Of a stretch of 64,000 bases of DNA, positions 16,671 through 39,754 are shown piece after piece; position 1 is the first letter of the stretch, and every line of letters starts with the position of its first letter. A program made the translations under genes and the position numbers. This DNA is from Rhodopirellula sp. P2 (GTDB lineage: Bacteria; Planctomycetota; Planctomycetia; Pirellulales; Pirellulaceae): contig NZ_CP118225.1 of NCBI RefSeq assembly GCF_028768465.1, positions 124,001 through 188,000 of the forward strand, in the 5' to 3' direction. The notes beneath the pieces were generated by a model. That model made no database searches. It was not told the DNA's origin and was given only the letters and a program-made list of their open reading frames with translations.

Positions 16671-16687
16671 ATACCACTATGGGGTAT
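16671..16687. promoter_or_regulatory. CsoR-type operator between csp and copA
   Basis: ATACCACTATGGGGTAT at 16671-16687 is an inverted repeat ATACC-N7-GGTAT lying 37 bp before the copA start and about 66 bp before csp. The same arrangement occurs at 19268 and 35536. Its form resembles known copper-responsive CsoR operators (ATACCC...GGGTAT type), and a CsoR gene lies at 22510. Derepression of both divergent genes by Cu(I) is the expected behaviour. Confidence 0.7.
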
Positions 16688-16723
16688 ATTGGAGAATGAC
16701 TTTTTGACAGCCTGGAGAAATTG

Positions 16724-19171
16724 ATGGACCACGCCAAGAAACACGAGACTTCATTGCCGGTCGCCGATCCGTCAATGCAAATTGATCCTGTTTGCGGCAT
16801 GAAGGTGCCTGCGGACAGTCCCCGTTCGGCGAATTTCCAAGGCAAACAATACGTATTCTGTAGTGATGGATGCTTGAGTAAATTCCAGGATGATCCCGCT
16901 GGGGTGCTGGCAAAACGATCGCAAAAGGAGGCGGCAAGCGACTCGTCTTGTTGCGGTGGAGAAGCGGCGATTCAGATTGGAGAACCCTCGACGACTTCGT
17001 CATGCTGCGGTGGTCACTCATCGACCAAGGCGAGCGATTCTCCGGCAGACCCAACTGCCATCTACACCTGTCCCATGCATCCGGAGATCGAGCAGGTTGG
17101 CCCTGGCGATTGCCCAATCTGCGGGATGGACTTGGAACCAAAAGTGGTTTCGATCGCTGACGAAGGAGAAGACCAACAGTACGCCGACATGAAACGTCGC
17201 TTTTGGGTTGGCGTTGCGCTGTCGGTGCCACTGCTCGTAATCGCGATGGGGCCGATGGTGGGCTTGCGGATCGCGGATTGGATGAGCCAGACGATGTTTG
17301 GTTGGTTGCAGTTGGCCCTCGCGACGCCAGTCGTTTTCTGGTGCGGGTGGCCATTGTTGGTTCGCGGAGCCAAGTCGTTTCGCACAATGAACTTGAACAT
17401 GTTCTCGTTGATCGCGGTGGGCACGTTGGCTGCTTACTTGTTCAGCTTGGTCGTGGTGCTGCTTCCGGGGGTGATCCCAGAAGCCTTCTTCGAGAATGGT
17501 GTGCCACCTCTGTATTTTGAAGCGGCGGCGGTGATCATCACTTTGGTATTGCTCGGACAAGTGTTGGAACTGCGAGCACGTCAGCAGACTGGCGGAGCGA
17601 TTCGCGAACTCATGAAGCTTGCTCCCGATACGGCACACCGAATCACAGACGATGGCGAGGAAGACGTCTCGCTAGATTCAGTACACAAGGGTGATCGGTT
17701 ACGAGTTCGCCCCGGTGAGAAGGTTCCAGTCGATGGGAAAGTGCTTAGCGGGTCGAGCAGCGTCGATGAGTCGATGTTGACGGGCGAGCCGATGCCTGTG
17801 AAAAAGGTCGAGGGCGACGAAATCACCGGCGGAACGTTGAATCAGACCGGTGCACTTGTGATGGAAGCCGTCGGCGTCGGCGGAGACACGGTTCTCAACC
17901 GCATCGTGCAAATGGTTGCGGACGCTCAGCGAAGTCGTGCGCCGATTCAGAAACTGGTCGATGTGGTCGCTCGGTACTTTGTGCCAGCGGTGATCGTTTG
18001 TTCGATTCTCGCGTTCATCGGATGGGCGGTGTTTGGCCCGGAACCGCAACTGGCTCATGCCTTTGTAGCGGCCGTTGCAGTGTTGATCATTGCTTGTCCG
18101 TGTGCATTGGGGCTGGCGACGCCGATGTCGGTGATGGTGGGTGTTGGCCGCGGTGCAAAGGAAGGCGTGCTGATCAAGAACGCAGAAGTCCTGGAGGTCA
18201 TGGAGAAGGTCGACACGATCGTCGTCGACAAGACTGGCACGCTCACGCAAGGACGGCCGGAAGTGACTGGCGTCGAGACGTTTGGTGATTGGAATGAAAA
18301 CGGTGTGTTGACGTTAGCTGCGGCGGTTGAAGCACAGAGCGAACATCCGTTGGCTCAGGCGGTCGTTCGCCGAGCGAAGGCGGATGAGTTGCAGGTTGTT
18401 GAGGCAAGTGAATTTAACAGTATCACCGGTGGCGGAGTTCGAGCTCGCGTCGATGATCATGATGTGTTGATTGGCAAGGCTGACTTGTTGGACGAACAAG
18501 GCATCGAGGGAGTCGATGCGGGAAGGGAAAAAGCGGGTTCGCGTCAGGCCGAAGGTGCGACAGTTGTGTTCGTGGCGATCGACCACTCGCTGGCCGCTAT
18601 TCTCGCAATCACTGATCCGATCAAGCAAAGCACGCCCGCGGCCTTGAAGACGTTGCACGAACTCGGATTGAAGGTGGTGATGTTAACTGGCGACGCTGAA
18701 CCGACCGCGAAAGCAGTCGCATCAAGGCTGGGTATCGACGAGTTTCATGCTGGGGTTTCGCCTGAGGAAAAGCATGACTTTGTTCGCGAGTTGAAGAAGG
18801 AGGGCAAGACGGTGGCGATGTGTGGGGATGGGATCAATGACGCTCCTGCACTTGCCGAAGCGAATGTCGGCATTGCCATGGGCACGGGAACGGGCGTAGC
18901 GATTGAATCTGCGGGCGTCACGCTCGTCGGTGGCGATCTGCGCGGCGTTGTGGCGGCGGCGAACTTGAGCCGAAAAACGATGAGCAACATTCGTCAGAAC
19001 TTGTTCTTCGCTTTCATCTACAACGCATTGGGAATCCCGGTCGCAGCCGGATTGCTGTATCCGTTCTTTGGCGTCTTGCTCAGCCCCATGATTGCAGCGG
19101 CAGCGATGAGTTTTAGCAGTGTGTCAGTGATTGCGAATGCGTTGAGATTGCGGGCAGCGAAGCTTACATAG
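16724..19171 (+). CDS. copA: copper-translocating P1B-type ATPase
   Basis: An 815-residue Cu(+)-exporting ATPase of the inner membrane. The N-terminus is composite: a YHS domain ([14 protein letters not shown] to [13 protein letters not shown], residues 19-60), two CCGG motifs, then a heavy-metal-binding domain ([26 protein letters not shown] region, about 110-140). The core has TGEP, the CPC metal-site motif in [11 protein letters not shown], the phosphorylation motif DKTGTLT and GDGINDAP. The usual GMTCxxC domain is absent and is replaced by YHS plus HMBD, as in many CopB/SilP-like pumps. ATG 16724 follows GGAG at 16714; TTG 16721 is less likely. A CsoR-type box precedes it. Confidence 0.92.
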
Positions 19172-19267
19172 TTCCGGTTGGTCAATTTGCGGCCAGCACA
19201 CAGTTTTGCCAGTCCTTACAACTGGAACCTGATGCGTCCATGACGGTCGAGAAAGTCCATAACTGGG

Positions 19268-19284
19268 ATACCCCTTGCAGGTAT
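19268..19284 (+). promoter_or_regulatory. CsoR-type operator upstream of tolC
   Basis: ATACCCCTTGCAGGTAT at 19268-19284 is a second ATACC-N7-GGTAT site, 60 bp before the GTG start of the TolC gene and about 97 bp after copA. It implies that the tolC-multicopper oxidase-csoR unit has its own copper-responsive promoter instead of relying on read-through from copA. Confidence 0.68.
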
Positions 19285-19343
19285 CTTGCCGACCTAGGAA
19301 GTAAGCCGACATGCCGCTGCTCAGATCAAAGGAGTGATTTTCA

Positions 19344-20867
19344 GTGCGATCGTTTTTGTTCAAGTCCGGATTATCAGTCATTGCGACCGCCGGAATCCTT
19401 TCTGCTACTGCCAACGCTCAAATGCCTTCGATGGGCAGCATGGCTTCACCCATTGGTCGGACGTACACATCCCCGCCGCCAGTGCCGACGGCACCATACG
19501 GTCTGGATGAACTCGATCCGAGCGGACCTCTATTTCCTGACATGCGTTACGACGGCAGCGACTTCCGTGCAGCACCGGCTCCTGTCTACGTCGATGGCGA
19601 GATGATCTCTGAAGCGAGCCCCGTGGATGCGGAGACCCATGGGTATGGGCTGGATGATTTCCTGACGCTCGCTGCACAGAACAATCCGACGATCCGTCAA
19701 GCTAGGTTACAGATATCCGCGCAAACGGCCAAGGCATTGCAGGCCGGTTTGTATCCCAACCCGACCCTGAACTACATCGGCGAGCAAATTGGCGTGGACG
19801 TCGAAGGCGACAAGGATTCGCCCGGTGAGTTCCAAGGCATGACAATGAGTCAGCGGTTTGTAACGGCCGGGAAGCTGAAGCTGAGTCGTGAGAAGTACAT
19901 GCGTCGTGCTCATGTCTCCGAACACCTCGCAATGGCACAACAGTTTCGCGTGTGCAATGACGTTCGCATTCACTTTTTCAAAGCGCTAGCGGCTCGTGAA
20001 ATTGTCGGACTGCGTAAGGAATTGCTGAAGACAGCAGAAGACGGTGCTGTCACTGCTCGTGAACTCTACAACCAAGGACAAGCAACTCGGCCGGATGTTC
20101 GGAAGTCAAGTATTGCACTTCAACGTGCGAGACTGGACGTGTTGACGGCGGAGAATCATTCCCGCGAAGCATTTCGTCGATTAGTCGCGATCACGGGAGT
20201 TGATCTATCCGAGGGTGTTGTGTCTGGCGATCTGATGCCGCAAGGCGAACCGATTTCTTACCAAGAAGCTATGTCGCTGGTGCTAACGGAAAGTCCGGAG
20301 CTTGCTGCAGCGAGAGCGAAGTTGGCTGCGGACCGAGTCACCGTTAGGCGTGAACAAGTCGAGTGGGTGCCGGACATCGTCGCTGAAGGTGGAGCGGGGT
20401 ACAACTTTGATGCGAAGGAAACCGTTGCTGCGGCAGGAGTTTCGATCCAACTCCCGGTCTTCGACCGAAACCAAGGCACGATTCGGCAAGCCCAGTTGGA
20501 CTACCGCCGTCAACAGGAAGAGATTCGCCGCACCGAGTTGATGCTCGGACAACAGATGGCCAACGTCTATCAGCAATATCTAACAGCACTGCAAATCGCG
20601 ACTGAATACGATCGCGTTATTATCCCCGAAGCAGAGCTGGCTTATCAAGAATTGCTCGAAAGCTACAAAGCAAACCGAGTGGACTGGCCGACGGTACTGG
20701 ACGCTCAGATGGAGTATTTCGACTCGCGTCTCACTCGTGTGCAGCATCTTGAGCAAGCCCGCACGAACGAAGTTCTTGTGCGAGGCTATCTGCTGCACGG
20801 CGGATTGATGGCCGCACCCGGCCCGACGCCACCAGGCCATATTGACGCAGTCGCGAAGCCTCGTTGA
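19344..20867 (+). CDS. TolC-family outer-membrane efflux protein
   Basis: A 507-residue secreted protein with a signal peptide (LSVIATAGILSATANAQ) and the TolC/CusC layout: duplicated long coiled-coil repeats with LTLAAQNNPTIRQARLQI near 105 and the LRAAR-type second repeat (ESPELAAARAKLAADRV) near 315. It starts at GTG 19344, preceded by AAAGGAG. Here it lies between copA and the oxidase with no RND gene beside it, so it may pair with the CusBA-like proteins encoded at 28969-34682 or act alone in the outer membrane. Copper regulation is suggested by the box at 19268. Confidence 0.85.
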   Translation: MRSFLFKSGLSVIATAGILSATANAQMPSMGSMASPIGRTYTSPPPVPTAPYGLDELDPSGPLFPDMRYDGSDFRAAPAPVYVDGEMISEASPVDAETHGYGLDDFLTLAAQNNPTIRQARLQISAQTAKALQAGLYPNPTLNYIGEQIGVDVEGDKDSPGEFQGMTMSQRFVTAGKLKLSREKYMRRAHVSEHLAMAQQFRVCNDVRIHFFKALAAREIVGLRKELLKTAEDGAVTARELYNQGQATRPDVRKSSIALQRARLDVLTAENHSREAFRRLVAITGVDLSEGVVSGDLMPQGEPISYQEAMSLVLTESPELAAARAKLAADRVTVRREQVEWVPDIVAEGGAGYNFDAKETVAAAGVSIQLPVFDRNQGTIRQAQLDYRRQQEEIRRTELMLGQQMANVYQQYLTALQIATEYDRVIIPEAELAYQELLESYKANRVDWPTVLDAQMEYFDSRLTRVQHLEQARTNEVLVRGYLLHGGLMAAPGPTPPGHIDAVAKPR

Positions 20868-20918
20868 TCGACGCTTCGTCTTCACCAATATCCATTCACT
20901 ACAATCAGTCTCAATCCC

Positions 20919-22433
20919 ATGACCAGTCCAGAAGATCGTCGTAAGTTTTTGAAGGTGGGCTCGATCGCGGCAGCTACCGGGTTTGTTGGCAATTTGCTAG
21001 GACGCAATGCCAACGCGCAGGAACCCATGAAGCACAGCGATATGAGACATCAGGACAACATGCCGCAGCCAATCGGCAACCCAGCGTCTCGCCCTGAGAT
21101 TCCAGAGTCAGTGGAGGTGGCCGCCGAGTACGACGGATTCTCGCGGTTCAAGCCAAGTCGCGGACTCGATCCGGACTCGGACTACTACATCGGCAAGCTG
21201 GTTCCCGGTTTTCGCAAAGCTTCCGATGGCCCCGCGCCTTTTGAAGCTCCCGACATTCCGGTGTTACCTTACAAGATGGAAGGCGGCGTCAAGGTCTTCG
21301 AGCTTGTGTCGATGGCGGTGCAGCAAGAGTTTCATCCCGGCGTCAAGATGAACGTCTACGGCTACAACGGCAGCATGCCTGGTCCGACGATCGAAGTCAC
21401 GCAAGGTGATCGCGTACGCATCGTCGTGACCAATGAACTGCCGGAAGATACGTTCGTTCATTGGCACGGCTTCGAGCTGCCGGTTCAGTATGACGGAGCC
21501 GCCACCTTGACTCAGAATCCTATCAAGCCTGGAAAGACAAAGGTTTTCGAGTTTGACATTCATGAAGAAGGCACATTCTTCTATCACTCGCATGTCGCGA
21601 TGCAAGAAGCGTTTGGACAAGTCGGTTGGTTCATCGTCCATCCCAAGAAAGTCTTTGGCCCGCCCGTGGATCGCGATTTCGGATTGCTGTTTCAAAACTT
21701 TCATATTCCGCCGACGCATACGATCAGCGACTCATGGGCGATGGATTGGAACTGGCACACGATCAATGGCAAGAGCGGTCCGTACACGACACCGCTGGTC
21801 TGCAAGCATGGCGAACGCGTACGCGTGCGGTTGTTGAATTTCGCCCCCATGCAACATCATCCGATTCATTTGCACGGACACACATTCTGGGTGACCGGTC
21901 ATGAAGGCGCTCGCATTCCTAAAAGTGCCTGGGTTCCCCGAAACAATGAACTCGTCGGTGTCGCACAAGCGTCCAGCTTTGAGTTCATCGCCAACAACCC
22001 CGGCGATTGGATTTTCCATTGTCATATGATCCACCACATGATGAATCACATGGTCAAACAAGTTGGCCCGCGAATCCGTGATGACGCCTCGGTCGATCAG
22101 TACCTTGCGAATCTCAGCAGCCGCCCCCAGGTCGACGCTTCACTGGGCGACAAGTTCGCGACACCGGGCTATCCCCAAAAGATGCTGGGTATGGAGATGT
22201 CCGACGACTTTATGAAGGCGATTTGGAGCCGAAAAGAAGTTCGCGGAATGCGAGCCAACTATCCGATGAGCGTAAAGGGATTGATGACGGTGCTGCGCGT
22301 TCTGCCGGACGACCTGTATGAGTTGGTGATGAACAGCGACCAGCCGGTTGAGAAAGGAGCGGTGTTTGCTGAAATCGTTCGACGATTCGGTGATCCCAGT
22401 GCTTATGAACCCGCGCCCAAGATGATGATGTGA
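20919..22433 (+). CDS. Tat-exported multicopper oxidase
   Basis: A 504-residue periplasmic oxidase. The N-terminus has a Tat signal (RRKFLK at residues 7-12, then a hydrophobic stretch ending NANAQ). Copper ligand motifs are complete: HWHGFELPVQYDGAA, FYHSHVAMQ, HHPIHLHGHTFWVTGHEG and WIFHCHMIHHMMNHM. The C-terminal 120 residues are an extra Met-containing extension. Such CopA/CueO-like enzymes oxidise Cu(I) to the less permeable Cu(II) in the periplasm. It begins 51 bp after tolC and is followed by csoR, so it is probably in the same copper-induced unit. No frameshift or missing ligand was noticed. Confidence 0.9.
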   Translation: MTSPEDRRKFLKVGSIAAATGFVGNLLGRNANAQEPMKHSDMRHQDNMPQPIGNPASRPEIPESVEVAAEYDGFSRFKPSRGLDPDSDYYIGKLVPGFRKASDGPAPFEAPDIPVLPYKMEGGVKVFELVSMAVQQEFHPGVKMNVYGYNGSMPGPTIEVTQGDRVRIVVTNELPEDTFVHWHGFELPVQYDGAATLTQNPIKPGKTKVFEFDIHEEGTFFYHSHVAMQEAFGQVGWFIVHPKKVFGPPVDRDFGLLFQNFHIPPTHTISDSWAMDWNWHTINGKSGPYTTPLVCKHGERVRVRLLNFAPMQHHPIHLHGHTFWVTGHEGARIPKSAWVPRNNELVGVAQASSFEFIANNPGDWIFHCHMIHHMMNHMVKQVGPRIRDDASVDQYLANLSSRPQVDASLGDKFATPGYPQKMLGMEMSDDFMKAIWSRKEVRGMRANYPMSVKGLMTVLRVLPDDLYELVMNSDQPVEKGAVFAEIVRRFGDPSAYEPAPKMMM

Positions 22434-22509
22434 AGCGGACTAACCGCAGAGACGTTTTGAGGGTAAAATCCGAGATTCTGCGAAATCTGCCTATCCAAAG
22501 TTCTCAAGA

Positions 22510-22788
22510 ATGCTCTCAGACGACGAGAAAAAGAAGCTTAACAACCGACTTCGACGTGTCATCGGACAAGTCGAAGCGGTTGGTCGTATGATCGAGGATG
22601 AGGAATACTGCGTCGATATCCTGATGCAGTTGTCCGCCGCGACCGGGGCATTGAACAAAGTCGGCCAGATTATTCTGGAACAGCACATCCGAACCTGCGT
22701 TAGCGATGCGATCAAGAGCGGAAATGCCAAGGACCGTGACGAGAAGATCGAAGAGTTGATGACTGTTTTTCGGAAATACGGCGAGTGA
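22510..22788 (+). CDS. csoR: CsoR-family metal-sensing repressor
   Basis: A 92-residue all-helical repressor of the DUF156/CsoR-RcnR family. The Cu(I) ligand triad C-H-C is present as Cys34 (EEYCVDIL), His59 and Cys63 (EQHIRTC), matching the CsoR pattern and not the RcnR (nickel) one, which needs a His near the N-terminus. In the apo form the tetramer binds GC-rich palindromes and releases DNA when it binds Cu(I). The window contains three ATACC-N7-GGTAT sites and one near-match, the likely targets. It follows the oxidase gene by 76 bp; I see no operator directly before it. Confidence 0.9.
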   Translation: MLSDDEKKKLNNRLRRVIGQVEAVGRMIEDEEYCVDILMQLSAATGALNKVGQIILEQHIRTCVSDAIKSGNAKDRDEKIEELMTVFRKYGE

Positions 22789-22800
22789 AGAATTAGCGTG

Positions 22801-23832: not shown

Positions 23833-23940
23833 AATCTTTTTCGCGAAGTCGTGAAGAAACGTCGGGGCCGTGCATCCAAAGAGCACCAAAGAAGAGATTC
23901 CTTCGTGCGAATCCTTTGAATGCTCTTGGAAATGCCTGTC

Positions 23941-24438: not shown

Positions 24439-24846
24439 ATGTTAGCGACCGTATTCTCTACTGTTTTGTTTGCCGTTTCGTTCGTCCCCAGCAACGTTGA
24501 CGCCACCGCCTCGGCCGAACCGACGTGTTGTGCCAAGCATGCGTACTGCTGCACCGTTCACGCGGCATGCTGTGGCAAACATGCTGAAGGCAAAGCGGAC
24601 ACGGACGAAGTGTCGAGTACAACTTCTCAACCCACCTGCTGTGCCAAGCGCGCGTATTGCTGCTCGGTGAACGCACGATGCTGCGGAAAGCACGCTGAAA
24701 CGAAAGCCGCGACCGGCGATGTCGCCAGTACCACAGGCCAACCGACCTGTTGTGCAAAGCGAGCGTACTGCTGCAGCGTTGGCGCTGCGTGCTGCGGCAA
24801 AGGATCGACAAGTCCCACGGAAGAGGAATCTGCTGAACTCAGCTAA
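24439..24846 (+). CDS. exported protein with three CC-rich tandem repeats
   Basis: A 135-residue protein: signal peptide (MLATVFSTVLFAVSFVPSNVDA), then three tandem copies of a module of the form PTCCAKxAYCCxVxAxCCGKxAE, joined by Ser/Thr/Asp linkers. Each module has three CC pairs, so 18 cysteines in all. This would suit extracytoplasmic Cu(I) or Ag(I) chelation, like a modular metallothionein, but I know no named family with this repeat. A GGAG at 24427 supports ATG 24439; the frame is open from 24325. It lies in the copper-resistance block and is followed by a terminator-like hairpin. Confidence 0.65.
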   Translation: MLATVFSTVLFAVSFVPSNVDATASAEPTCCAKHAYCCTVHAACCGKHAEGKADTDEVSSTTSQPTCCAKRAYCCSVNARCCGKHAETKAATGDVASTTGQPTCCAKRAYCCSVGAACCGKGSTSPTEEESAELS

Positions 24847-24912: not shown

Positions 24913-24921
24913 TAAGGTGCC

Positions 24922-28968: not shown

Positions 28969-31900
28969 TTATGCTGCCTTCATCAGCTCCTCCTCTGGCA
29001 TCGCTTCGGTTCCGTCCCAAAGCTCGTCTTGAAAACCGAATCGCATTTTCAGTTCCAGGTAGCCGCAATACAGCGTCGGCACAATGAACGACGTGAACGG
29101 TTCGGCTAGCATTCCGCCGAACACTGGGATCGCCATCGCGCGGGCCACGTCGGCACCGCGACCGGTTGCAATCAACACTGGGACGAGCGCCGCCAGCGTT
29201 GTCACGGTCGTCATCATGCAGGGGCGAATACGTTTCAGACCGGCTTCGTAAACCGTGTTGCGGATGTCCTCGACTGATTGAACTTTGCGTTTTTTCAACA
29301 GCTGGTGAATGTAGGTCGCCATCACCACGCCGTCGTCGACGGCTAGGCCGAACAGCGCAATGAAGCCCACCCACACCGCGGTGTTGAGTTCCACGCCCAT
29401 GGTCGCGACGGCGATCATGCCGCCTGCAAATGCAACCGGAATGCCTGAGAACACCGCAAGCGAGATTGAGAAGTTGCGAAACTCCATGTAGATCAGCAGC
29501 AAGTTGATGCAGATGACCAGGGGGATGATCCACATTAGTCGCAGGTTAGCCTCGATTTGGTTTCGGAAACTTCCCACTGCTTCAAGCGAGTATCCTGCGG
29601 GAAGTGACAGGCGATTTGGATTCGATGGCGGCAACGACTGTGCCGTGCGGAGTTGCTCTTCGATCGCCGAGACCGATTCCAGGTCACCCTTGCTACCATT
29701 GGTCATGAATGAAACATGAGCGACCAGTCGCCCGTTTTCGCTGTTGATTGCACCTGGCCCCCACGTCGTTTCCAGTTCCGCGAGTTCTTCCAACGGCACG
29801 ACCGCACCTGAATGCGTGACGACTGGCAAACGCTTCAGGCCGTCGATCTGTTCGCGAAGGTCGCGGTTGTATCGAAGCCGCACGGGATAACGTTCTCGAC
29901 CTTCGACCGTCTTGATCAGATTCATTCCGCCGAGCGCCGTTTCGATGACTTGGTTCACCATCGACGAACTCATTCCGTAACGCGATGCTGCCTCGCGATC
30001 GACCGTGAACTCGACATACGGTTTTCCGAGCACAATGTCGGGATTGACCGTGCCTGCATTGATCAGCGGTGATTTTTTTAACTCGGCGGCGACGTCCATT
30101 GCGGCGTCGGCGAGCGTGTCCAACTTGTCGCCGTAAACACGGATGGCCATCGGAGCCTTGATGCCGGACTGCAACATCACGACACGGCCTTCGATCGGTT
30201 GCAGTGCCGAGGCGGGCGTGACACCGGGCAGCGTTGCGACTCGGTTGATTTCATCCCACACATCGCGTGCGGTGACGCCTTCTCGCCACTGGCTTTCAGG
30301 TTTCAGCATCACATACGTTTCGACCATCGCTGCGGGAGCGGGATCGAGTGCCGATTCAACGCGACCGATCTTGCCCAGTACATCCTTCACTTCAGGAATC
30401 TGGCCAATCAGCACATCTTGAGTTTGTAGGACCTGCATTGCCTGCGAGAAGCTCGCTGCCGGATACAGCGTCGGCATGTAGAACCAGCTTCCCTCGTCCA
30501 ACGCGATCCAGTCGTCACTTTGCAAACCAGTAAAGACGTGCTTGGCATCAACGTATCCGGGAAAATCATTCAACTCAGCACCGAACAGGTTTGCCACCTT
30601 CTCGACCGGACGAAGGATGGTTGGCATGCCGACGTAGGCTCCCACGCCGATGATTAGTAGGACGAGCGGAAACGATAACGCGAACGCTTTGTGATTGAGA
30701 GCGTGACGCAGCCGCGCCGCATAAATCCAGCGAACGAAGCGGCTCGACGGGATTTCTTCGATGGGTCGAATTCGTTCTCGCATCAACTGCCAACCGCCAA
30801 TCAAGCCGATTGTGGCTGCAATCACGGTCACAACCCAAGTCTCTAGGCCAAAGCGTTCCGCAAGTCTCGACCCCCAAAGGAAATGCGAAGCTACGCCGAG
30901 TAGTCCGGCCAACGAAATTCCTGCAATGAGAGCTGTGCTCTTGCGACGCACCGAGCTTCGCAGCATCAGGCGGCACAAAGCCGGAACGATCGTGACGGCA
31001 GCGATCATCGCTGCGGCAATCGCAAATGTCTTGGTGTAAGCCAGCGGCGAAAACAGTTTGTAGTCACGACCGGTCAGGAAGAAGACCGGTAAAAAACTGA
31101 CGATCGTTGTTGCGACGGCAGTCACAACGGCGGGTGCGACTTCGACCGTTGCTTCGTAGACAACTTCGCTTCGCGTTCTAGACAAGGAGTGTAAGAGACA
31201 AGAAGACACGGAGCTATCTAACTGCTTGTCTCCCTCTCTCCGTGTCTCCTTGTCTCCTTGTCTTTCTCGCTCCCACTCTGCCAAATGCTGGTACACATTT
31301 TCTGAAACGATGATCGCCATGTCGACCATCGTTCCAATCGCGATCGCGATTCCCGCCAGTGACATGATGTTCGCACCGACACCAACTACTCGCATCGCGA
31401 TGAACGACATCAGCACAGCAGCAGGCAAACAGATCGCGACGACAAAGCTGCTGCGAATGTGCAGTAGGAACAGCAGGATGATGATCGCAGTGATAATGAT
31501 TTCGTCACGCAATGCATGCGTCAGCGTGGCCATCGTTTCATCAATTAAGCCGCTGCGATCGTAGACGCCGTGAATGGTCACACCCTGCAGCGATGGCGTA
31601 ATCGCGGCGATTTTCTCTTTGACTCGGTCGATCACGACTCGCGGGTTTTCGCCATATCGCATGACGACCACGCCGCCGACAGCCTCGGCTCCGTTGTAGT
31701 CCAACGCACCGCGACGAAAGTCCGGGCCAATCTGCACATTGGCAATATCGCGAACACGAACGGGAACACCGTCGCGCTGCATGATGACGGTGTCCTCAAT
31801 GTCCTCGACCGCTTTATCCTTGTCACCGCCCGAGCCGAGGAAGCCCTTACTGCGGACGATGAACTCCATTCCCGTCGTCTCGACAGTCTTTGCACCGACG

Positions 31901-32547
31901 TCAAGGTTCGATCCCTTGATCGCCATCGCCAATCTATCCAGCGACACGTTGTGGAATCGAAGCTTGTCGGGATCGACTTCGATCTGATACTGGCGAACGT
32001 AACCCCCGATCGAGGCAACCTCGCTGACGCCCTCGACCGCCTGCAATTCGTACTTCACGACGAAGTCTTGCATGCTGCGAAGTTCTGCTAGCCCCATGCC
32101 TTCATCGGGTGGCTCGAGCGTGTAGTAATAGACCTGCCCAAGCCCCGTGGCGTCTGGCCCAAGTTGTGGCACAACGCCGTCGGGCAACTGAGACGCCGCA
32201 CTGCCGAGTTGCTCGGAAACTCGGCTTCGTGCCCAATAGAAGTCAATCTCGTCTTTGAACGTGACCTGCACAAAGCTGTAACCGAACATGCTCTTGCCGC
32301 GCACCGATTCGGCACCGGGAACGGCGAGCAACGAAACACTCAACGGATAGGTGACCTGATCTTCGATGTCCTTCGGCGAGCGACCCGGCCATGGCGTCAA
32401 TACGATGACTTGGTTTTCGCCAATGTTCGGAATTGCGTCGATTGGGATGGACTTGAAGCTGACCCAACCGGCAACGCTCAAGCCGATCGTGAGTAGCACG
32501 ACCAGCCAAGGTTCTTTGACGCAAAAGCGAATGATTAGATTTAACAT
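28969..32547 (-). CDS. cusA: heavy-metal RND efflux pump (CusA-like)
   Basis: A 1192-residue inner-membrane RND transporter of the heavy-metal group. It opens with the family N-terminus (VLLTIGLSVAGWVSFKSIPIDAIPNIGENQ) and has the TM4 motif GTMVDMAIIVSEN, which resembles Cu/Ag-type pumps. It exports Cu(I)/Ag(I) from cytoplasm or periplasm using proton flow. It is longer than usual (about 1050) partly because of a charged insertion at about residues 420-455, after TM4. That insertion is encoded by a palindromic GA-rich repeat at 31180-31275 and kept in frame. It starts 11 bp after the adaptor gene. Confidence 0.88.
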   Translation of the reverse strand: MLNLIIRFCVKEPWLVVLLTIGLSVAGWVSFKSIPIDAIPNIGENQVIVLTPWPGRSPKDIEDQVTYPLSVSLLAVPGAESVRGKSMFGYSFVQVTFKDEIDFYWARSRVSEQLGSAASQLPDGVVPQLGPDATGLGQVYYYTLEPPDEGMGLAELRSMQDFVVKYELQAVEGVSEVASIGGYVRQYQIEVDPDKLRFHNVSLDRLAMAIKGSNLDVGAKTVETTGMEFIVRSKGFLGSGGDKDKAVEDIEDTVIMQRDGVPVRVRDIANVQIGPDFRRGALDYNGAEAVGGVVVMRYGENPRVVIDRVKEKIAAITPSLQGVTIHGVYDRSGLIDETMATLTHALRDEIIITAIIILLFLLHIRSSFVVAICLPAAVLMSFIAMRVVGVGANIMSLAGIAIAIGTMVDMAIIVSENVYQHLAEWERERQGDKETRREGDKQLDSSVSSCLLHSLSRTRSEVVYEATVEVAPAVVTAVATTIVSFLPVFFLTGRDYKLFSPLAYTKTFAIAAAMIAAVTIVPALCRLMLRSSVRRKSTALIAGISLAGLLGVASHFLWGSRLAERFGLETWVVTVIAATIGLIGGWQLMRERIRPIEEIPSSRFVRWIYAARLRHALNHKAFALSFPLVLLIIGVGAYVGMPTILRPVEKVANLFGAELNDFPGYVDAKHVFTGLQSDDWIALDEGSWFYMPTLYPAASFSQAMQVLQTQDVLIGQIPEVKDVLGKIGRVESALDPAPAAMVETYVMLKPESQWREGVTARDVWDEINRVATLPGVTPASALQPIEGRVVMLQSGIKAPMAIRVYGDKLDTLADAAMDVAAELKKSPLINAGTVNPDIVLGKPYVEFTVDREAASRYGMSSSMVNQVIETALGGMNLIKTVEGRERYPVRLRYNRDLREQIDGLKRLPVVTHSGAVVPLEELAELETTWGPGAINSENGRLVAHVSFMTNGSKGDLESVSAIEEQLRTAQSLPPSNPNRLSLPAGYSLEAVGSFRNQIEANLRLMWIIPLVICINLLLIYMEFRNFSISLAVFSGIPVAFAGGMIAVATMGVELNTAVWVGFIALFGLAVDDGVVMATYIHQLLKKRKVQSVEDIRNTVYEAGLKRIRPCMMTTVTTLAALVPVLIATGRGADVARAMAIPVFGGMLAEPFTSFIVPTLYCGYLELKMRFGFQDELWDGTEAMPEEELMKAA
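31180..31275. repeat. in-frame palindromic GA/CT repeat inside cusA
   Basis: Left arm AGACAAGAAGACACGGAG (31196-31213) pairs with CTCCGTGTCTCCTTGTCT (31238-31255), with one mismatch in 18 bp and a 24-base loop. Related copies are at 35985-36130, 45045-45090 and 49385-49455. It encodes a charged Gln/Gly/Asp/Lys/Arg peptide between TM4 and TM5 regions of the pump that related RND proteins lack. Confidence 0.7.
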
Positions 32548-32558
32548 GGTTCGTTTCC

Positions 32559-34682
32559 TTACTGCACCGTGCGAGCGATTGAGGGAACTTCGCCAACGGG
32601 CATCGCCATGTCACGAACGACCTCGCCGCAAGTCAGCATCTCGCTGCCCCAATACGGGTTCTGCAATTCGCCGCCGGGTTGCATCCAGTCGCCTCCGCCG
32701 CCAGGAACCATCGGGCAGTAGTAATGCGTTAGCTTCACGGCTGTCTTCGGACCGCGAGCAACCGTCGCCGCTTTCAACATCGCGTGACTAACCCCGCGAT
32801 AGGCTTCGCGAGCCGTCTCTAACGAGCCATCCATGCGTGACGCCGCGCGGCGAGCGGTCGCGAACCTGCGTTGAGCCTCATCGGGAACTTCCGCCGACAT
32901 TTCCAGTTCGCGGAGTCCTTCGATCAGCGTATTCAGTGCGACCGGGGGTGGAGTCTGATCCGCCGCCATCGCGCACTGGATTTCAAAGTAAGCGTCGTAG
33001 GTGCGATCAAACTGCTTTCCCGCGTCGGTCGCCAACATGACCGGATTCGTTTGAGGAAGCTCAAGCGGTCCCGGCGAATAGCTCGGGGCCTTCGTCGGGT
33101 CCATCAACGATGGGTTGCCGGCAAGCTGCATTTGCGAGTCGATGAGGAAATTACCGCCAGTGGCGACTGTCTCGCCGGCGGACAAACCTTCGACAATCAC
33201 CGCTTCCTTACGATTCATCGGGCCAACCGTGACTCGGCGAATCTCAAAACGTCCCGGTTCAGTTTCGACATAGATCACACTGTTTTCACCGGCCAACAGC
33301 ACGGCGTCGCGAGGAACGGTGACGACCTGCTGCATCGGCAACGGCTGCGACGCAAAACCAAGTTGCGACGTTGGCACCAAATCCATGTCGCACAGCGGGC
33401 ACTTGCCCGGTTCGTCGCGGATGACTTGCGGGTGCATCGGGCTGATGAACTTGTTCGCCAGTGCCGGGTCGTACACCTGATCCATCGGAATCGCGGGCAC
33501 GGTCACGCGAGCGGTGGCGTAGTCGCCCGGACGTAGCTTCCCATCGAAATTCATGATCTCGACCCGGACGCGAACTGTTCGAGTCTTCGGGTTAACCGTT
33601 GGATCGATGAAAGCGACGCGACCAGTAAACACCTCGCCGGGCATCGACTGAATCTCGGCTTCGACTTGTTGCCCGAATCGAACTGCCGATGCGTCATCGG
33701 GGAACAGATCAAGCATCAACCAGACGCTACTGAGATCAGCGACTCGATAGAGCTTGTGTCCCGTTTTGACGTAGTCACCTTCAACGGCTGACTTCTCAAT
33801 GACCGTTCCACTTTGCGGCGACTTGATGCGGATGCGCGACATTGGCTTGCCCGACTTCCCCAACTGGTCGATCTGACTTTGCGTCATGCCAAGCTCAGCC
33901 AAATTCTCGCGAGCCATCTTGTTGAGATCGCCGCCAGCAATTTGAAATCGCCCAATTTTCCCGTCACTGTTCATGCTGGTGATGAACTCGGTTTGGGCCG
34001 TATAGAGCTGCGGACTGTAAATCAATGCAAGGTCGTCACCTTCATTGACTTTCACACCGGCATAGTTCGCGTACATCTTTTCCAAACGGCCGTCGATGTA
34101 CGCACTGATCGTCGACAGTTGACTTTCATCGAAGTCAATCGAGCCGATGGTGCGAATCGTGCGGTTGACTTCGCCCATCTTTGACATGGCGGTTTGAATG
34201 CCGACGAGTCGACGAGCCGAGGGTTCAATGGTGACCGAGATGCCGTCGCCACCACCACCGCCAGTCGCTTCGACCAATTCCATTGCGCAAACCGGGCATC
34301 GTCCTGGCTCCGTCGAAGGCGGCGTGCACATCATCGGACAGATATACCGTTTTTCTTCGCCACCGCCGGCTTCCTCGACGGCTTCGCCATTGCCGCCCGA
34401 GAATCCGTCAGCAGTCAACCACTTCGTTCGTTGTGCGACGCCGAGCAAGAAGAACACGAGGCCGGCGACGATGACGACAGTTACGGCTTGCACGCCCGTG
34501 CGCATGAGCCACTTCATCCCGCCACCACTTTGAGTAGCGTTGGATTGAGCTTCAACTGGCGTAGGCGATTCTTCGACCGCAGTTTCCGCTGGCTCGCTAT
34601 ACGCAGGCGCGTCCGCAACCACGTTGCTGATCTCGTCATCAGCGTCAGCTTCATCCGGTTTGATTGGTTCGTCCTGATTCAT
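32559..34682 (-). CDS. cusB: RND periplasmic adaptor with metal-binding domains (CusB-like)
   Basis: A 707-residue membrane-fusion protein. One TM helix (VQAVTVVIVAGLVFFLLGVA) follows an acidic N-terminus. Then come a heavy-metal-binding domain (YICPMMCTPPS to CPVCAMELV), the adaptor core (FDESQLSTISAYIDGRLEK, a long alpha-hairpin, RVADLSSVWLMLDL) and a second such domain (ISPMHPQVIRDEPGKCPLCDMDLVP). A C-terminal extension containing HYYCPMVPGGGGDWM completes it. Adaptors of this type deliver metal to CusA and bridge to TolC. It starts at ATG 34682 (GTG 34694 is possible) and ends 11 bp before cusA. Confidence 0.88.
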   Translation of the reverse strand: MNQDEPIKPDEADADDEISNVVADAPAYSEPAETAVEESPTPVEAQSNATQSGGGMKWLMRTGVQAVTVVIVAGLVFFLLGVAQRTKWLTADGFSGGNGEAVEEAGGGEEKRYICPMMCTPPSTEPGRCPVCAMELVEATGGGGGDGISVTIEPSARRLVGIQTAMSKMGEVNRTIRTIGSIDFDESQLSTISAYIDGRLEKMYANYAGVKVNEGDDLALIYSPQLYTAQTEFITSMNSDGKIGRFQIAGGDLNKMARENLAELGMTQSQIDQLGKSGKPMSRIRIKSPQSGTVIEKSAVEGDYVKTGHKLYRVADLSSVWLMLDLFPDDASAVRFGQQVEAEIQSMPGEVFTGRVAFIDPTVNPKTRTVRVRVEIMNFDGKLRPGDYATARVTVPAIPMDQVYDPALANKFISPMHPQVIRDEPGKCPLCDMDLVPTSQLGFASQPLPMQQVVTVPRDAVLLAGENSVIYVETEPGRFEIRRVTVGPMNRKEAVIVEGLSAGETVATGGNFLIDSQMQLAGNPSLMDPTKAPSYSPGPLELPQTNPVMLATDAGKQFDRTYDAYFEIQCAMAADQTPPPVALNTLIEGLRELEMSAEVPDEAQRRFATARRAASRMDGSLETAREAYRGVSHAMLKAATVARGPKTAVKLTHYYCPMVPGGGGDWMQPGGELQNPYWGSEMLTCGEVVRDMAMPVGEVPSIARTVQ

Positions 34683-34747
34683 GACAGTTCTCACAGCGTT
34701 TTCCGGCTTGCGTTTGTGGTTCCATCCACAGACGTCAGCTCAAGAGG

Positions 34748-34794: not shown

Positions 34795-34961
34795 TCGCCT
34801 CCAGGCCGTGACCGGTTCATTGTTTCGGGTGACGCGAATCAAATCGCGTAGGGATTGCATCTGGAAAGACTCCACTGGGAATGAGCGCGCAGCACCATTC
34901 ACGTGAAAGCCAACTTGAAACCGAAGAGCTACGAGCGCGCAGCTCTCCTATCGAGACGACG

Positions 34962-35516
34962 CTAGATGCGCCAGATGCAAAGAAACCGCTGAGAGAAATG
35001 CGGTGAGTGATCGCCATGCGGCAATCGTGAAACCAGTTGATCTGGACGAATCGAAAGCCCAGCGTCTGAGGCGACGTGATCCAGGTACGCGATCACGACC
35101 AATTCACGAACTTGCGGAACAGGAACGCGATGAGGTGCTGGTGCAATCGGTTCCGAGCGAATTCCACACATACACGATGACAATGCAACCCGGTCTTGAA
35201 CCAAGTTCTCGTCGTCGGGTTTCGGTGGCTCAGGCACGACATCGGAGATTTCTCCGAACAACTCATCGTGCTTTGGCCGTTCGGATTTTTTCTTGCAGCA
35301 ACTGCCGGCGTCTTCTTCGTTGCCACTACAGCAGCCGCACAGATCACCGTCTGTTTTCACTTCACAGCATTTGCAAGCTTGGCAGACCGTTTCGGCCTCG
35401 CAGCACTGACCTTGAGCACATGTTCCCTGCGCAGCAACGATCGCCATCGGCTGAATCACTATTACAGCGATCAGACAAAGATTAACGGCGGCGCGAATTA
35501 GGGGGGAGTTACTCAC
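34962..35516 (-). CDS. exported Cys-rich protein
   Basis: A 184-residue protein with a signal peptide (LCLIAVIVIQPMAIVAAQ) followed by a dense Cys region: CAQGQCC, CQACKCC, LCGCCSG, SCCKK. The remainder is acidic and Pro-rich, with SSCMCG near the middle. It is probably an exported metal chelator. GTG 35516 preceded by GGAAGG fits best; the longer frame starting at 35546 begins inside the operator at 35536. It is divergent from the second tolC gene and shares its CsoR-type operator. Confidence 0.6.
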   Translation of the reverse strand: MSNSPLIRAAVNLCLIAVIVIQPMAIVAAQGTCAQGQCCEAETVCQACKCCEVKTDGDLCGCCSGNEEDAGSCCKKKSERPKHDELFGEISDVVPEPPKPDDENLVQDRVALSSCMCGIRSEPIAPAPHRVPVPQVRELVVIAYLDHVASDAGLSIRPDQLVSRLPHGDHSPHFSQRFLCIWRI

Positions 35517-35535
35517 TGTGACCTTCCGAAAAGGA

Positions 35536-35552
35536 TACCCATACACGGTATA
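35536..35552. promoter_or_regulatory. CsoR-type operator, third site
   Basis: ATACCCATACACGGTAT at 35536-35552 is the third ATACC-N7-GGTAT site. It lies 20 bp from the Cys-rich gene start (minus) and about 98 bp from the second tolC start (plus), in a divergent promoter region. It predicts copper control of both. Confidence 0.68.
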
Positions 35553-35649
35553 TGAACTGTATCGGAAATTTGGCCGAAGAGTTCAATAGGAATTAGCCGG
35601 TTAGGCAAACTTTGACAGCACAATTATAGCTCATTAGGACCTGAACGCC

Positions 35650-37326
35650 ATGGATCGGCATTCTTCGAGACCCGGAAGAACCCAAGCGAAGCGCCTGCTG
35701 CTAGCAGCATTGGTTGCCGCGTCGGTGTCCGGTTGTGCCTCCCAGCGTGGTGTTCATGTAGCAAAAGTCACCACTGCGTCCGCCGCGTCGAACCCGACTT
35801 CGGTCGCGACCAGCGATGTCGATTGGCAGCAAGTCCTTAGCGAACCGGAAACAGGGGCCATTCAGCCCGCAGGCTACAACGACGGGTTGGTGATCGCATC
35901 GCCCGCCGTCTTCGCACAGCCACCCAAGGAAGACGGCAAACGAAGTTTCGGAGACTTTCTGCAACTCGATCCGCCCAAGGAAGATGGGGAGAAGAGTAGT
36001 CAGGGAGATGAGCGAGACACGGAGACAAGGAGCGGGAAACAAGACAAGGAGGCAACGAGGTTGGGAGACACGGAGAAAGATGTTGACTCAGCGTCTCCCA
36101 ATCTCCTTGTCTCCCCCTCTCCCAACTCCCCCACCGGCCAACCCGTCGAGTATTTTGTTGGCACCGCACTCGCACGCCACCCAAAAATCCTCGCCGCCCA
36201 GCAACGTGTCGCTGCAGCGTCCAATGTCATCCCGCAAGCCAAAGCGTTGCCTGACCCGACATTCAACAACACCTTCTGGCCTTTGCACGACAACGCCATT
36301 CAAACCGCGGCCGGCCGAGTCGCCAATCAGATGTCGGTCAACCAGATGGTGCCGTTTCCTGACAAGCTGAAAACCAAAGCGGTGATCGCCAGTCGCGAGG
36401 TGCAAATCGCTCAAACGGAAGTCGACGCGATTGCCCGCGAGATTACCGAGTCCGTTCGTCTCGCCTACTACGAAGTCTGGTTCGCGACCCGAGCGATCGA
36501 CATCATCGAGGAAACCAAAGGCCTCGTCGCTGACCTGACGGATGTCGCCGAGGCACGCTACCGCAGCGGCGGTTCTCAACAAGACGTGTTGCGAGCACAA
36601 CTCGAAACCGATCGGCTCGACGAACAACTCATCACGCTTGCGAAACAAAAGCTGGTTGCCCAAGCCGACCTCGCTACTTTGCTACAGCAACCCATCGGCA
36701 TACTTCCCGAAGCGACGGATGAACTCGGCATCACAGACACTCCACAGCAAATTGAAGAGCTGATCGCGTTAGCCGAGCAGTGCAACCCGAAGCTACGCGG
36801 CCTCGCGTGGGAAATCCAACGCGATCGCGACAAAGAACGCTTGGCTTGCTTGCAGCAGTATCCAGACTTCAGTGTCGGATTGAATTGGGGATTAGTCAGC
36901 GACAATCATGATGTTCTTAGCCCAGTAGCTAACGGGAACGATCAACTCAGCGTCAGCTTCGGTACGACATTGCCGATCTGGCGAGAGAAGATCAACGCTG
37001 GAATCCGCGAAGCAGCTCACCGTCGCGGTAGCACGACTCGACGCCTGGAAGCCGAACGAGATGAACTTTACGGAAAAATCCGTCGCTTGATCGTTCAAGC
37101 CGACGCCCTGGTCGAGCAACGCAACATCTACGAAGAACGAATCATCCCGCGTACCGAAGACACGCTCAAACTGTCAATCGCCGACTACCGAGGCAAACGC
37201 ACGGACTTCTTCACGTTGATCGAAACCTACCGCGAGCTATTGATGTTCGAGACACAACTCGCGCGCATCGACGCCACACTGGCCGGCACCATCGCCCAAA
37301 TCGACCGCACGGTAGGATGCCCGTAG
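35650..37326 (+). CDS. TolC-family outer-membrane lipoprotein (CusC-like)
   Basis: A 558-residue TolC-type protein with a lipobox (LLAALVAASVSGCAS). The OEP domain begins near residue 170 (VEYFVGTALARHPKILAAQQRVAAAS) with the second repeat starting near 375. It probably supplies the outer-membrane channel for the divergently encoded CusBA pair. Between the lipidated N-terminus and the OEP domain lies an insertion of about 50 residues (roughly 111-160), rich in Gly/Asp/Glu/Lys/Ser, encoded by a copy of the GA-rich palindromic repeat also found in cusA. Its reading frame is intact. Confidence 0.85.
   Translation: MDRHSSRPGRTQAKRLLLAALVAASVSGCASQRGVHVAKVTTASAASNPTSVATSDVDWQQVLSEPETGAIQPAGYNDGLVIASPAVFAQPPKEDGKRSFGDFLQLDPPKEDGEKSSQGDERDTETRSGKQDKEATRLGDTEKDVDSASPNLLVSPSPNSPTGQPVEYFVGTALARHPKILAAQQRVAAASNVIPQAKALPDPTFNNTFWPLHDNAIQTAAGRVANQMSVNQMVPFPDKLKTKAVIASREVQIAQTEVDAIAREITESVRLAYYEVWFATRAIDIIEETKGLVADLTDVAEARYRSGGSQQDVLRAQLETDRLDEQLITLAKQKLVAQADLATLLQQPIGILPEATDELGITDTPQQIEELIALAEQCNPKLRGLAWEIQRDRDKERLACLQQYPDFSVGLNWGLVSDNHDVLSPVANGNDQLSVSFGTTLPIWREKINAGIREAAHRRGSTTRRLEAERDELYGKIRRLIVQADALVEQRNIYEERIIPRTEDTLKLSIADYRGKRTDFFTLIETYRELLMFETQLARIDATLAGTIAQIDRTVGCP
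35985..36130. repeat. in-frame palindromic GA/CT repeat inside tolC
   Basis: The segment holds GAGACACGGAGACAAGGAG (36014-36032) and a second GAGACACGGAG at 36065. It also holds the hairpin TTGGGAGAC (36061-36069) with GTCTCCCAA (36093-36101), then TCTCCCCCTCTCCCAAC shared with the copy at 45045. It encodes the variable linker of the TolC protein without breaking the frame. Confidence 0.7.
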
Positions 37327-37347
37327 TCGTCGTAAGCTAGAACAATC

Positions 37348-39077
37348 CTAATTGCCACTGTCGGGGCTTGAGTCGTCCTTGTTTAGCACGTCGGCGATGA
37401 TGTGCAGATTCTCATCGCACCGCTCGCAGAGCGTTTTGAAGTCGGCAAGCAACGTTCCCGAACGGTTTCGTGCTTCTTTCTCCAACTCGGCTTGTTTACT
37501 GCCCGAGGCATGACCCTTCAAAGCCGATCGCAAAAAGTGCATCGTTGAAAGCGGCTCAACGAGTTCTTTCGATCGCTGCTCGTCAAAGCCCAATCCAATT
37601 AGACACTCCTGAAGCAGCCGGATCCCACGCCATTGATGCTCCAGTTCTCGCCCGAGCGACTTGGCACGCTTGCGGATCGGCTTCTCGACGATTGATTCAA
37701 CGACCATCTGGTCTAGATTTAGCAACTCGTCGGACCAATCTTGGCGTGTGTCAGTCAGCGGGTATTGGGTGCGTCGCAACAATTCTTCGTCGCGAAGTCG
37801 CCACCAATCACACGGATGCTCATGCAACTCACGGCAACGACTGCGAAGACTTTCCAATGGTTCATAGTGCTCTGACCAGCGACCTTCAAAGTCCGTCGCT
37901 ATGACCGATTCCGATAGTCCTGCCTTGGGTTCTTCGTTAAACGACTTCCAATGCAACTGTTCGGTGTGCGGCAACTTGCCAAGGTCGCACAAGTATGCAT
38001 GGACTTGACCAGCATCATTGACGCCCCAACCTTTGAGGTACCACGCTCCGCGACAGGAAATTGTTCTCCCTTCGATCGCGTATTTTTCTGGATCGGCTTT
38101 GTACTTCCTGAGCACTCCAGGTTTGAAAAATGCAGGGCTTGTTTGAAACGGGCCGTCCGCAGGCACGAAATAGTTGGCAGTTCCGCAGGATCACAGCTGA
38201 ACGTGTCGACGGTTTGATTCCGCCAGTCCCAAGCGATGAACGATTCGTACTGCTCTGTCGCAGCATCCGACCCCCAAACCGTTCGAGCAATCTCAGCTTT
38301 GGTTAAACCAGGGTTCGCCCATTGAATTCCTCGAGAAACGCTGGCGTACTTCTCGGCGACGTGAATCCAGCCGTGAAGGTTGCTACCACCGGGGATGGAT
38401 TGACGACTCATTTCCGACGCGAAACCATGAAAACTCCCCGACCGGTATCGAGGAACATCAAACATGCGAAAAAGCCACTGCCCGGTGAGCCCGGCATACT
38501 GTCGCAACGCTCTCATGTCCATCGAGACAACACGCCCGGCGTCCGTTGCATCAAAATCATGAACTTTGATCACTTCATCAACATCGCCACGATCGTCTGT
38601 TTTGCACCAAGCTTTCCGCTCCGGAATGTGGTGCAACGACAGCGTATGTGTCAGCTTTTGGCTGATCTCGATGTAAGTGCGTTTTGGGTCAACTAGATCC
38701 GAGTCTCGTAGAAAAACGAGCTTCTCACCCTTGCCAAGATGTTTCGAGCCAACGAAATCGAGCGGTGAGGCGATCCACGCATCGTCACCAGAGGTCGTGA
38801 GTGCCCACGTCGAATCGACCGTCAGACTCCAGTCCATCAGGTCTGCAATTTCGCTCTCATTCTTTGGATCGAATGGAGGCACAAGGACCGCGTGAAGAAA
38901 GAGATGCGAAAAACTCGCGTAGAGAATCACACGATCGTCCAATAGGTCACGCTGCAAGAAGTCGGCTAAGTCATTCTGCAAAATCCATTCAGCAAAATCA
39001 GACTCCGATTCAGGGACCGTTGCGACTCGCCGGATCGTTTTGTCGTCGTGTGGATTCAAGAGCAATACTCTTTGCAA
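37348..39077 (-). pseudogene. frameshifted gene for a large unknown protein
   Basis: Two overlapping minus-strand frames look like one interrupted gene. The upstream frame (39077 down to about 38170, some 300 residues) carries FSHLFLHAVLVPPFDP and FIAWDWRN. Its later sequence is garbled. Coherent sequence resumes in another frame near 38170 as NYFVPADGPFQTSPAFFKPG and continues to GN at 37348. Loss of one base near 38170-38180 would explain it. The full protein would be about 570 residues of unknown function; the C-terminal half is helical and contains YKADPEKY. The start is TTG 39077 or further upstream. A sequencing error is possible. Confidence 0.55.
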
Positions 39078-39178
39078 CTTGGGTAGTGATTGACTTGCAT
39101 CAGATTACACAAGATGAGCAAACGTCGCTGTGGGTTCAGGGGGATATCCTTCGGATAATTCTGCAGCACTAAATCAGG

Positions 39179-39721
39179 TCAACTCAACAACTTCCTCAAT
39201 TCCCGCCGTGCCCGGTTCAATCTTGAACCGACGGTTCCTTCGGGGATGTCGAGTGTCGCGGCGATCTCCTGGTACGACAATCCGTTCTCTTCTTTGAGCG
39301 TGAAGATCGCTCGCAGCTCAGGGTCGAGGGCGGCGAGTGCTTGTCGGACAAGTTGGGCACGCTCGTCTTGTTCGACGGAATCGTTTTGCCGCGTGGTTGG
39401 TTCGGCTACAAGTTCGCTCGTTCGCCGGTGCTTCTCCCGCCGCAGGTGCTGCAAGGCTTCGTTGGTCGCCAGGCGGTACAACCAAGTCTCGAACTTCGAG
39501 TCGCCACTGAATTGACTGAGCTTGGAAAACGATCGCACGTAAACCTGCTGCGTTAGGTCGTCGGCATCTTGGACGCCGACCATCCGCACCATCAACCGAT
39601 ACACCCGATCGCTGGTCGCCTCGTAGATGTCGCGCAGCGCACGTCGATCACCGACCGAAGCGGCTTGCACCGTCGGTTCGTCAATCGAATTCTGAGCTGT
39701 GTTTTCATGCGAAGGCTCCAT
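39179..39721 (-). CDS. ECF-type RNA polymerase sigma factor
   Basis: A 180-residue sigma-70 family factor of the ECF group. Region 2 includes VYRLMVRMVGVQDADDLTQQVYVRSF and FETWLYRLATNEALQHLRR; region 4 includes LRAIFTLKEENGLSYQEIAATLDIPEGTVGSRLNRARREL. No anti-sigma gene follows; the next gene on that strand is the frameshifted unknown. ATG 39721 is chosen because a GTG start at 39745 would lie within the operator-like element at 39738-39754. Together with that element this suggests a copper-responsive sigma factor. Confidence 0.85.
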   Translation of the reverse strand: MEPSHENTAQNSIDEPTVQAASVGDRRALRDIYEATSDRVYRLMVRMVGVQDADDLTQQVYVRSFSKLSQFSGDSKFETWLYRLATNEALQHLRREKHRRTSELVAEPTTRQNDSVEQDERAQLVRQALAALDPELRAIFTLKEENGLSYQEIAATLDIPEGTVGSRLNRARRELRKLLS

Positions 39722-39737
39722 TATCGCAATTCTACAC

Positions 39738-39754
39738 ATACCCACCGGGGGTAA
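39738..39754. promoter_or_regulatory. near-match CsoR-type operator before the sigma gene
   Basis: ATACCCACCGGGGGTAA at 39738-39754 fits ATACC-N7-GGTAT at 9 of 10 fixed positions and has the same spacing as the three exact sites. It lies 16 bp before the ATG of the ECF sigma gene. If real, CsoR would couple copper to that sigma factor. Confidence 0.5.

Follow-up and report, generated by a model that had tools for sequence, protein, structure and literature searches.

The closest described counterpart of the system treated here is the copper regulator CsoR of Streptomyces lividans (Tan et al., 2013; PMC3902906), an RLxR-bearing protein whose type 2 operator has the form TAC-X9-GTA, with about 11 bp between AT-rich arms and two C/G tracts, and whose targets include copZA operons. 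In Mycobacterium tuberculosis copper operons are likewise under CsoR-family control (CsoR and RicR), and the RicR regulon includes a multicopper oxidase (PMC10141476). Copper has also been linked to an extracytoplasmic function (ECF) sigma factor in Myxococcus xanthus, where CorE senses the metal through a Cys-rich C-terminal extension (PMC10141476). Here we analyze a stretch of 64,000 nucleotides from Rhodopirellula sp. P2 (the window; positions 124001-188000 of a genome that is a single contig of 7,291,416 bases), in which four copies of an inverted repeat, ATACC-N7-GGTAT, stand before copper genes and before an ECF sigma gene (ecf), with a csoR gene among them. The presence of the four recurrent sites is confirmed, and on sequence grounds they very probably are type 2 CsoR operators of a regulon that would be relieved by Cu(I) and apparently includes ecf.

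As in S. lividans, the sites have the TAC-X9-GTA form with C/G tracts, the CsoR protein carries RLxR, and a copper-ATPase gene (copA) is among the apparent targets. Unlike those of S. lividans as set out in the excerpted text of PMC3902906, most operators here are lopsided (2 C against 3-5 G in 26 of 30 distinct sites), and tolC, a multicopper oxidase (MCO), cusBA and an ECF sigma gene appear among the targets. In M. tuberculosis the CsoR operator exceeds the sites here in length and carries GTA and TAC in the reverse arrangement (PMC3902906, PMC10141476), and unlike M. tuberculosis as covered in the excerpt of PMC10141476, Rhodopirellula sp. P2 has two csoR paralogues, each of them in a locus whose operators are of one and the same type. 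The survey of marine bacteria in that excerpt gives Planctomycetota only two-component and ECF copper regulators, which differs from the present finding of CsoR-family genes in 22 of the 119 genomes of the family. Among the titles and abstract openings listed by searches of the open-licence literature, no description of a planctomycete CsoR regulon or of a CsoR-repressed ECF gene was found. The CsoR regulon itself is of a known kind, here defined by sequence for Planctomycetota; what is new is the apparent control of an ECF sigma gene by CsoR.

Recurrent sites in the window and in the genome

A sequence-only reading had placed exact sites at 16671, 19268 and 35536 and a near-match at 39738, and had assigned them to a copper regulon. 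The first two positions stand as given, and the third site starts at 35535, position 35536 being the start of its TACC core. The near-match was also found, with a single mismatch in the outermost base of one side and an intact TACC-N7-GGTA core. The four sites are as follows.

16671..16687, no strand: putative CsoR operator 1, ATACCACTATGGGGTAT, exact, in the divergent csp/copA promoter
19268..19284, no strand: putative CsoR operator 2, ATACCCCTTGCAGGTAT, exact, before tolC1-MCO-csoR
35535..35551, no strand: putative CsoR operator 3, ATACCCATACACGGTAT, exact, between cys3-cusB-cusA (- strand) and tolC2 (+ strand)
39738..39754, - strand: putative CsoR operator 4, TTACCCCCGGTGGGTAT in gene sense, before ecf, core exact and ending 17 nt before the start codon

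All four have the type 2 form (a TAC-X9-GTA inverted repeat with two C/G tracts), in agreement with the published operator (PMC3902906) and with the CsoR-like form that had been ascribed to them. Under the start codons chosen for this analysis, the four sites and the three exact sites of a second copper locus (see below) are intergenic and precede copper-related genes or ecf, and those in the window lie before the very genes that had been named (csp/copA, tolC-oxidase, tolC/Cys-rich and the ECF sigma gene); the mechanical list of open reading frames (ORFs) has longer ORFs covering each window site. The TACC-N7-GGTA core occurs in the window four times, exactly at these sites, against a shuffle expectation of 0.07 per 64 kb, which was used in place of a reversed-core control (n = 89) that was discarded as background because ATGG and CCAT are common and make it unfair. 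Dinucleotide shuffles of the window predict 0.01 exact sites and 0.21 sites at up to one mismatch, and none of 100 shuffles equaled the observed counts. A search with TACCC-N7-GGTA gave no match, but the pattern with three C before N7 implies another spacing and is therefore uninformative, and no sigma-70-like site was found at operators 1 and 2 in a promoter scan of 16550-22520 that covered those two operators only.

The genome-wide scan that had been proposed as a check was run, and the exact motif is confined to two copper loci and is not equally common within unrelated genes. Six exact 17-mers occur in the genome, three in the window and three (at 1704549, 1714596 and 1714936) in the second copper locus. 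These loci each contain one of the two CsoR-family genes that a protein-family search detected in the genome. The TACC-N7-GGTA core occurs ten times, with seven copies in these two loci and the remaining three inside mechanical ORFs, the third of which is doubtful. Allowing up to one mismatch gives 35 sites, where the reversed pattern used as a control gives 18; unlike the exact motif, one-mismatch copies do recur among unrelated genes.

Spacing, linkage to csoR and conservation

Spacing was evaluated at 39 csoR loci obtained by protein search, five planctomycete ones of which come from a single organism (TBK1r). Exact ATACC/GGTAT pairs number 40 at spacing 7 and zero at spacings 1-6 and 8-12; the reversed control gives none at spacing 7 and one overall, at spacing 11. 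Planctomycete loci account for nearly all of the spacing-7 sites (37 of 40), with one or more in 25 of the 27, and 3 of the 12 non-planctomycete loci have one site. One of these three is L046, a metagenome-assembled genome labeled Proteobacteria, in which the same 17-mer lies just before csoR. The 22 csoR-bearing genomes of the family hold 93 exact sites, compared with 16 of the reversed control, and 45 of the 93 are within 30 kb of csoR (39 of 87 when the P2 genome is left out), where random placement would put 0.88; the observed number is a lower bound because draft contigs break. Among 30 distinct planctomycete sites (own included), 26 have one extra C/G beside the core and four have two, where independence would predict about 15 with one, about 10 with two and 6 with none. 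Most sites have one short arm (CC) and one long arm (GGG or more), and the ecf sites have at least 3 C/G on both sides; this asymmetry statistic is descriptive only, because the site sequences are related.

Footprints were examined in the regions around csoR of ten relatives, counting the window, and also the second own locus where it aligned, and with promoters lacking a good N-terminal match omitted before alignment (e.g., tolC1 of G091, G013 and G111). The exact site is present in all 11 aligned cys3 promoters and in 8 of 9 copA promoters (one mismatch in G013); the site is also found in 9 of 9 csp promoters, mostly as the same divergent site as that of copA, and in 5 of 6 tolC1 promoters, being missing in G028. 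Across the csoR-bearing genomes of the family the exact site accompanies 13 of 17 csp copies, including copies remote from csoR (e.g., in G072 and the second copy of G103), as compared to none of 3 in csoR-less genomes, where one copy (G083) has a one-mismatch site.

The last of these genomes, G083, is a single contig, 100% complete by estimate, with no CsoR match; its congeners G028 and G109 carry csoR, which appears to have been lost in the G083 lineage. It retains copA (79%), csp (71%), ecf (80%), cys3 (54%), cusB (78%) and cusA (85%, in the fetched part). All three operators examined are damaged: that of csp/copA reads ATACCATTACGGGGCAT, and in the promoters of ecf and cys3 only the right half, GGGTAT, is left. 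This suggests, and does not prove, that the damage is tied to the absence of csoR. G083 serves as a natural test of operator decay once the repressor is gone.

CsoR and the predicted regulon

The gene that had been read as csoR at 22510 is borne out by family, structure and residue matches.

22510..22788, + strand: csoR, predicted Cu(I)-sensing repressor of 92 aa (PF02583, E 6.3e-31; PDB CsoR 4m1p, E 9.6e-18)

The protein belongs to the CsoR/RcnR fold family (Trns_repr_metal, PF02583), and CsoR structures are its best match. In alignments with structure chains, C34-H59-C63 align with the Cu(I) ligands of the M. tuberculosis CsoR chain, as do Y33 and E82, which we take to be second-shell residues of the Cu(I) site; R13-L-R-R16 (the RLxR motif) and Q40 are also kept. 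A Cys-His-Cys set provides the Cu(I) ligands of CsoR (PMC10141476), and the RLxR motif and the Gln have a DNA-contact role (PMC3902906). The second own CsoR scores 98.4 bits against a cut-off of 22.8 and carries EYC and QHLNRC. No TACC-N7-GGTA core was found directly upstream of csoR in the window scan; csoR is probably read from operator 2 together with tolC1 and the MCO gene, and hence autoregulated. The other genes next to the operators are listed here, apart from ecf, which is treated below.

16273..16605, - strand: csp, copper storage protein, Csp3-like four-helix bundle (PDB 3lmf, uncharacterized, E 5.8e-23; 6zif RkCSP3, E 2.4e-16)
16721..19171, + strand: copA, Cu-translocating P1B-type ATPase with YHS and HMBD domains (TIGR01511, 596.6 bits, cut-off 397; Pfam)
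19344..20867, + strand: tolC1, outer-membrane efflux protein (PF02321, E 1.2e-34)
20919..22433, + strand: multicopper oxidase, MCO (PF07732, E 1e-35; PF07731, E 1.6e-25)
28969..32547, - strand: cusA, resistance-nodulation-division (RND) pump (PF00873, E 1.3e-199)
32559..34694, - strand: cusB, adaptor with heavy-metal binding domains (PF16576, E 2.3e-69; PF19335)
34962..35519, - strand: cys3, small Cys-rich protein, probably secreted, first gene before cusBA (from its translation)
35650..37326, + strand: tolC2, outer-membrane efflux protein (PF02321, E 2.2e-28)

Against NCBIfam Csp1 the csp product scores 22.3 bits, far under the cut-off of 100, and cys3 has no family match in Pfam or NCBIfam. 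In the regulation that we infer from these data, which comprises CsoR binding, repression, a copper response, an operon structure, a leaderless ecf mRNA and an ECF cascade, CsoR would bind each TAC-X9-GTA site when copper is absent, probably as two tetramers, and apo-CsoR would thereby block the promoters of csp/copA, tolC1-MCO-csoR, cys3-cusBA, tolC2 and ecf. With the biochemistry taken from what is established for CsoR (including PMC3902906), binding of Cu(I) at C34-H59-C63 would lower the affinity for DNA and switch the genes on, the predicted outputs being storage (Csp), export from the cytosol (CopA), oxidation (MCO) and efflux across the envelope (CusBA-TolC). Release of ecf by CsoR would probably start a second wave of transcription.

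The ECF sigma gene

39179..39721, - strand: ecf, ECF sigma factor of 180 aa (Pfam sigma-70 regions 2 and 4; TIGR02937, 102.4 bits, cut-off 42.9)
39729..39734, - strand: putative ecf -10 box TAGAAT, 7 nt before the ATG, conserved as TAnAA(T/C)

Of the 39 genomes in which ecf had a match, 20 were covered by the ecf promoter scan and a further nine (own included) elsewhere, the ten left out having weaker matches. TAC-X9-GTA lies upstream of ecf in all 12 csoR-bearing relatives whose orthologue is at least 58% identical. In the window and 11 of these relatives the distance from the end of the core to the ecf start codon is 17 nt (16 nt in G037), and all 12 promoters have TAnAA(T/C) 4 nt past the core, 7 nt before the ATG in 11 and 6 nt in G037; the twelfth relative, G112, has an exact 17-mer further upstream. 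Transcription from a -10 box at that distance would begin at the ATG itself, and this arrangement suggests that the ecf mRNA is leaderless, with the operator immediately ahead of the -10 box. At lower identity, G045 (ecf 53%) also has an exact 17-mer further upstream, and G022, G032 and G009, which have the CsoR family and an ecf relative of about 50% identity, have no TAC-X9-GTA upstream of it. In 12 csoR-less genomes, 11 of which have distant ecf relatives only, no TAC-X9-GTA was found within 260 bases of the aligned ecf start. Relatives at 45-56% identity are probably non-orthologous and are given little weight.

The window ECF ends in ...RRELRKLLS and has no Cys-rich C-terminal extension; unlike CorE, which senses copper through such an extension (PMC10141476), it would seem to be controlled by CsoR at the level of transcription. 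The specific proposal that CsoR directly represses a leaderless ecf in Rhodopirellula-type planctomycetes, and that a single sensor of cytosolic Cu(I) would thereby release both the detoxification operons and a second programme, is favored by us with some reserve. If true, a second transcriptional programme would be engaged without a dedicated anti-sigma factor or a copper-binding tail. Such a tie between a copper sensor and an ECF sigma factor predicts a leaderless ecf mRNA that is raised by copper.

Weight of the evidence and alternative explanations

The interpretation as a copper regulon run by CsoR, first put forward in the sequence-only reading, is supported because the exact sites in the genome cluster with the two csoR genes, the N7 spacing is strict, the footprints are conserved and the operators of G083 are damaged; the retained Cu(I) ligands also agree with it. 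Several observations weigh on the other side. Related genomes are not independent, which affects the conservation counts, and the ecf promoters of G011 and G075 are identical. Just over half of the exact sites in csoR-bearing genomes (48 of 93) are distant from csoR or on other contigs, some of these being csp promoters (e.g., in G072, G109 and G063 and at the second copy of G103), and 5 of the 22 genomes (G009, G022, G032, G063 and G106, all drafts in many contigs) lack any exact site on the csoR contig within 30 kb of the gene. Second csp copies in G111, G075 and G011 (G111b, G075b and G011b) have no site, and the csp site of G006 has one mismatch. The 97 csoR-less genomes have 190 exact sites against 94 controls, an excess of about twofold; recurrent forms such as ATACCTATTACTGGTAT in csoR-less L077 and L078 (site at 1501), with the reverse in L070 and L072, seem by eye to be a coding motif for a conserved T-Y-Y-W-Y peptide and not an operator, so that part of this excess is probably coding. 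Finally, G083 is the single csoR-less genome that was studied at several promoters.

Ownership of the sites by another copper regulator, such as an activator of the MerR/CueR type with csoR as a bystander, is improbable. MerR/CueR-type operators are inverted repeats between -35 and -10, just before the -10, and the ecf site does directly precede a -10-like box; moreover, the survey for regulators in the second locus covered the window's own proteins only. However, of the 19 window proteins that were mapped onto that locus, CsoR is the sole DNA-binding regulator to have a counterpart in it, the absence of csoR in G083 accompanies site damage, and the 17-mer stands just before csoR in L046. The spacing and sequence of the sites also agree with published CsoR operators (PMC3902906).

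It is more improbable still that the ECF sigma factor of 39179-39721 is the main copper regulator and that the sites are parts of its promoters. The gene lies within the cluster, and cys3 promoters share an ECF-like TTGAAC-N16-CGATAC (window 35559-35586, - strand), with spacing 16 in 10 of the 11 in the relatives' set and 15 in G028. However, G091 and G013, which have no ecf match at E 1e-30, retain both the sites and this motif, sites occur without an ecf match in the second own locus, and the sites are strict inverted repeats, which ECF promoters are not. As a 28-mer the motif occurs once exactly in the P2 genome and 31 times at up to one mismatch, compared to 20 reversed controls. A role of cys3 as an ECF target by way of this motif was dropped because the ecf-less G091 and G013 keep it and because TTGAAC-N17-GATACA is equally readable as a housekeeping promoter; the element is best described as a conserved putative promoter of unassigned sigma type. 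Chance recurrence of a short palindrome without function, which had been called unlikely, can be given almost no credence, for although the genome has many one-mismatch sites (29, of which 27, mostly background, lie outside the copper loci; seven of the 27 were checked, and all seven lie inside mechanical ORFs), the shuffle, spacing, conservation and csoR linkage results agree in opposing it.

Neighboring genes and the second copper locus

At 24439-24846 the window encodes a small protein with, by eye, three near-repeats CCAKxAYCCxVxAxCCGK; it has no NCBIfam match, is possibly metal-binding and has counterparts in several relatives. Beyond orf1400, a second P-type ATPase (44290-46761, - strand) is about 37% identical to copA, and its counterpart directly precedes ecf in G055 and G028. 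In G083 an ORF ahead of ecf on the same strand (L208 11265-12164) resembles by eye a zinc-binding anti-sigma factor (HIESCTVC), and the intergenic DNA around it and ecf is repeat-rich.

The second copper locus contains a cusA/cusB pair, a tolC2-like protein, a Cys-rich protein, a second csp and the second csoR, and a one-mismatch site at 1696478 lies before a further RND-type set. Its tolC1 copy (L017 9172-9546, genome 1714172-1714546) is a fragment that matches residues 1-86 of tolC1, and an ORF unrelated to the copper set of the window (L017 8704-9165) lies between the fragment and csoR. The operator ahead of the tolC1 fragment is still exact.

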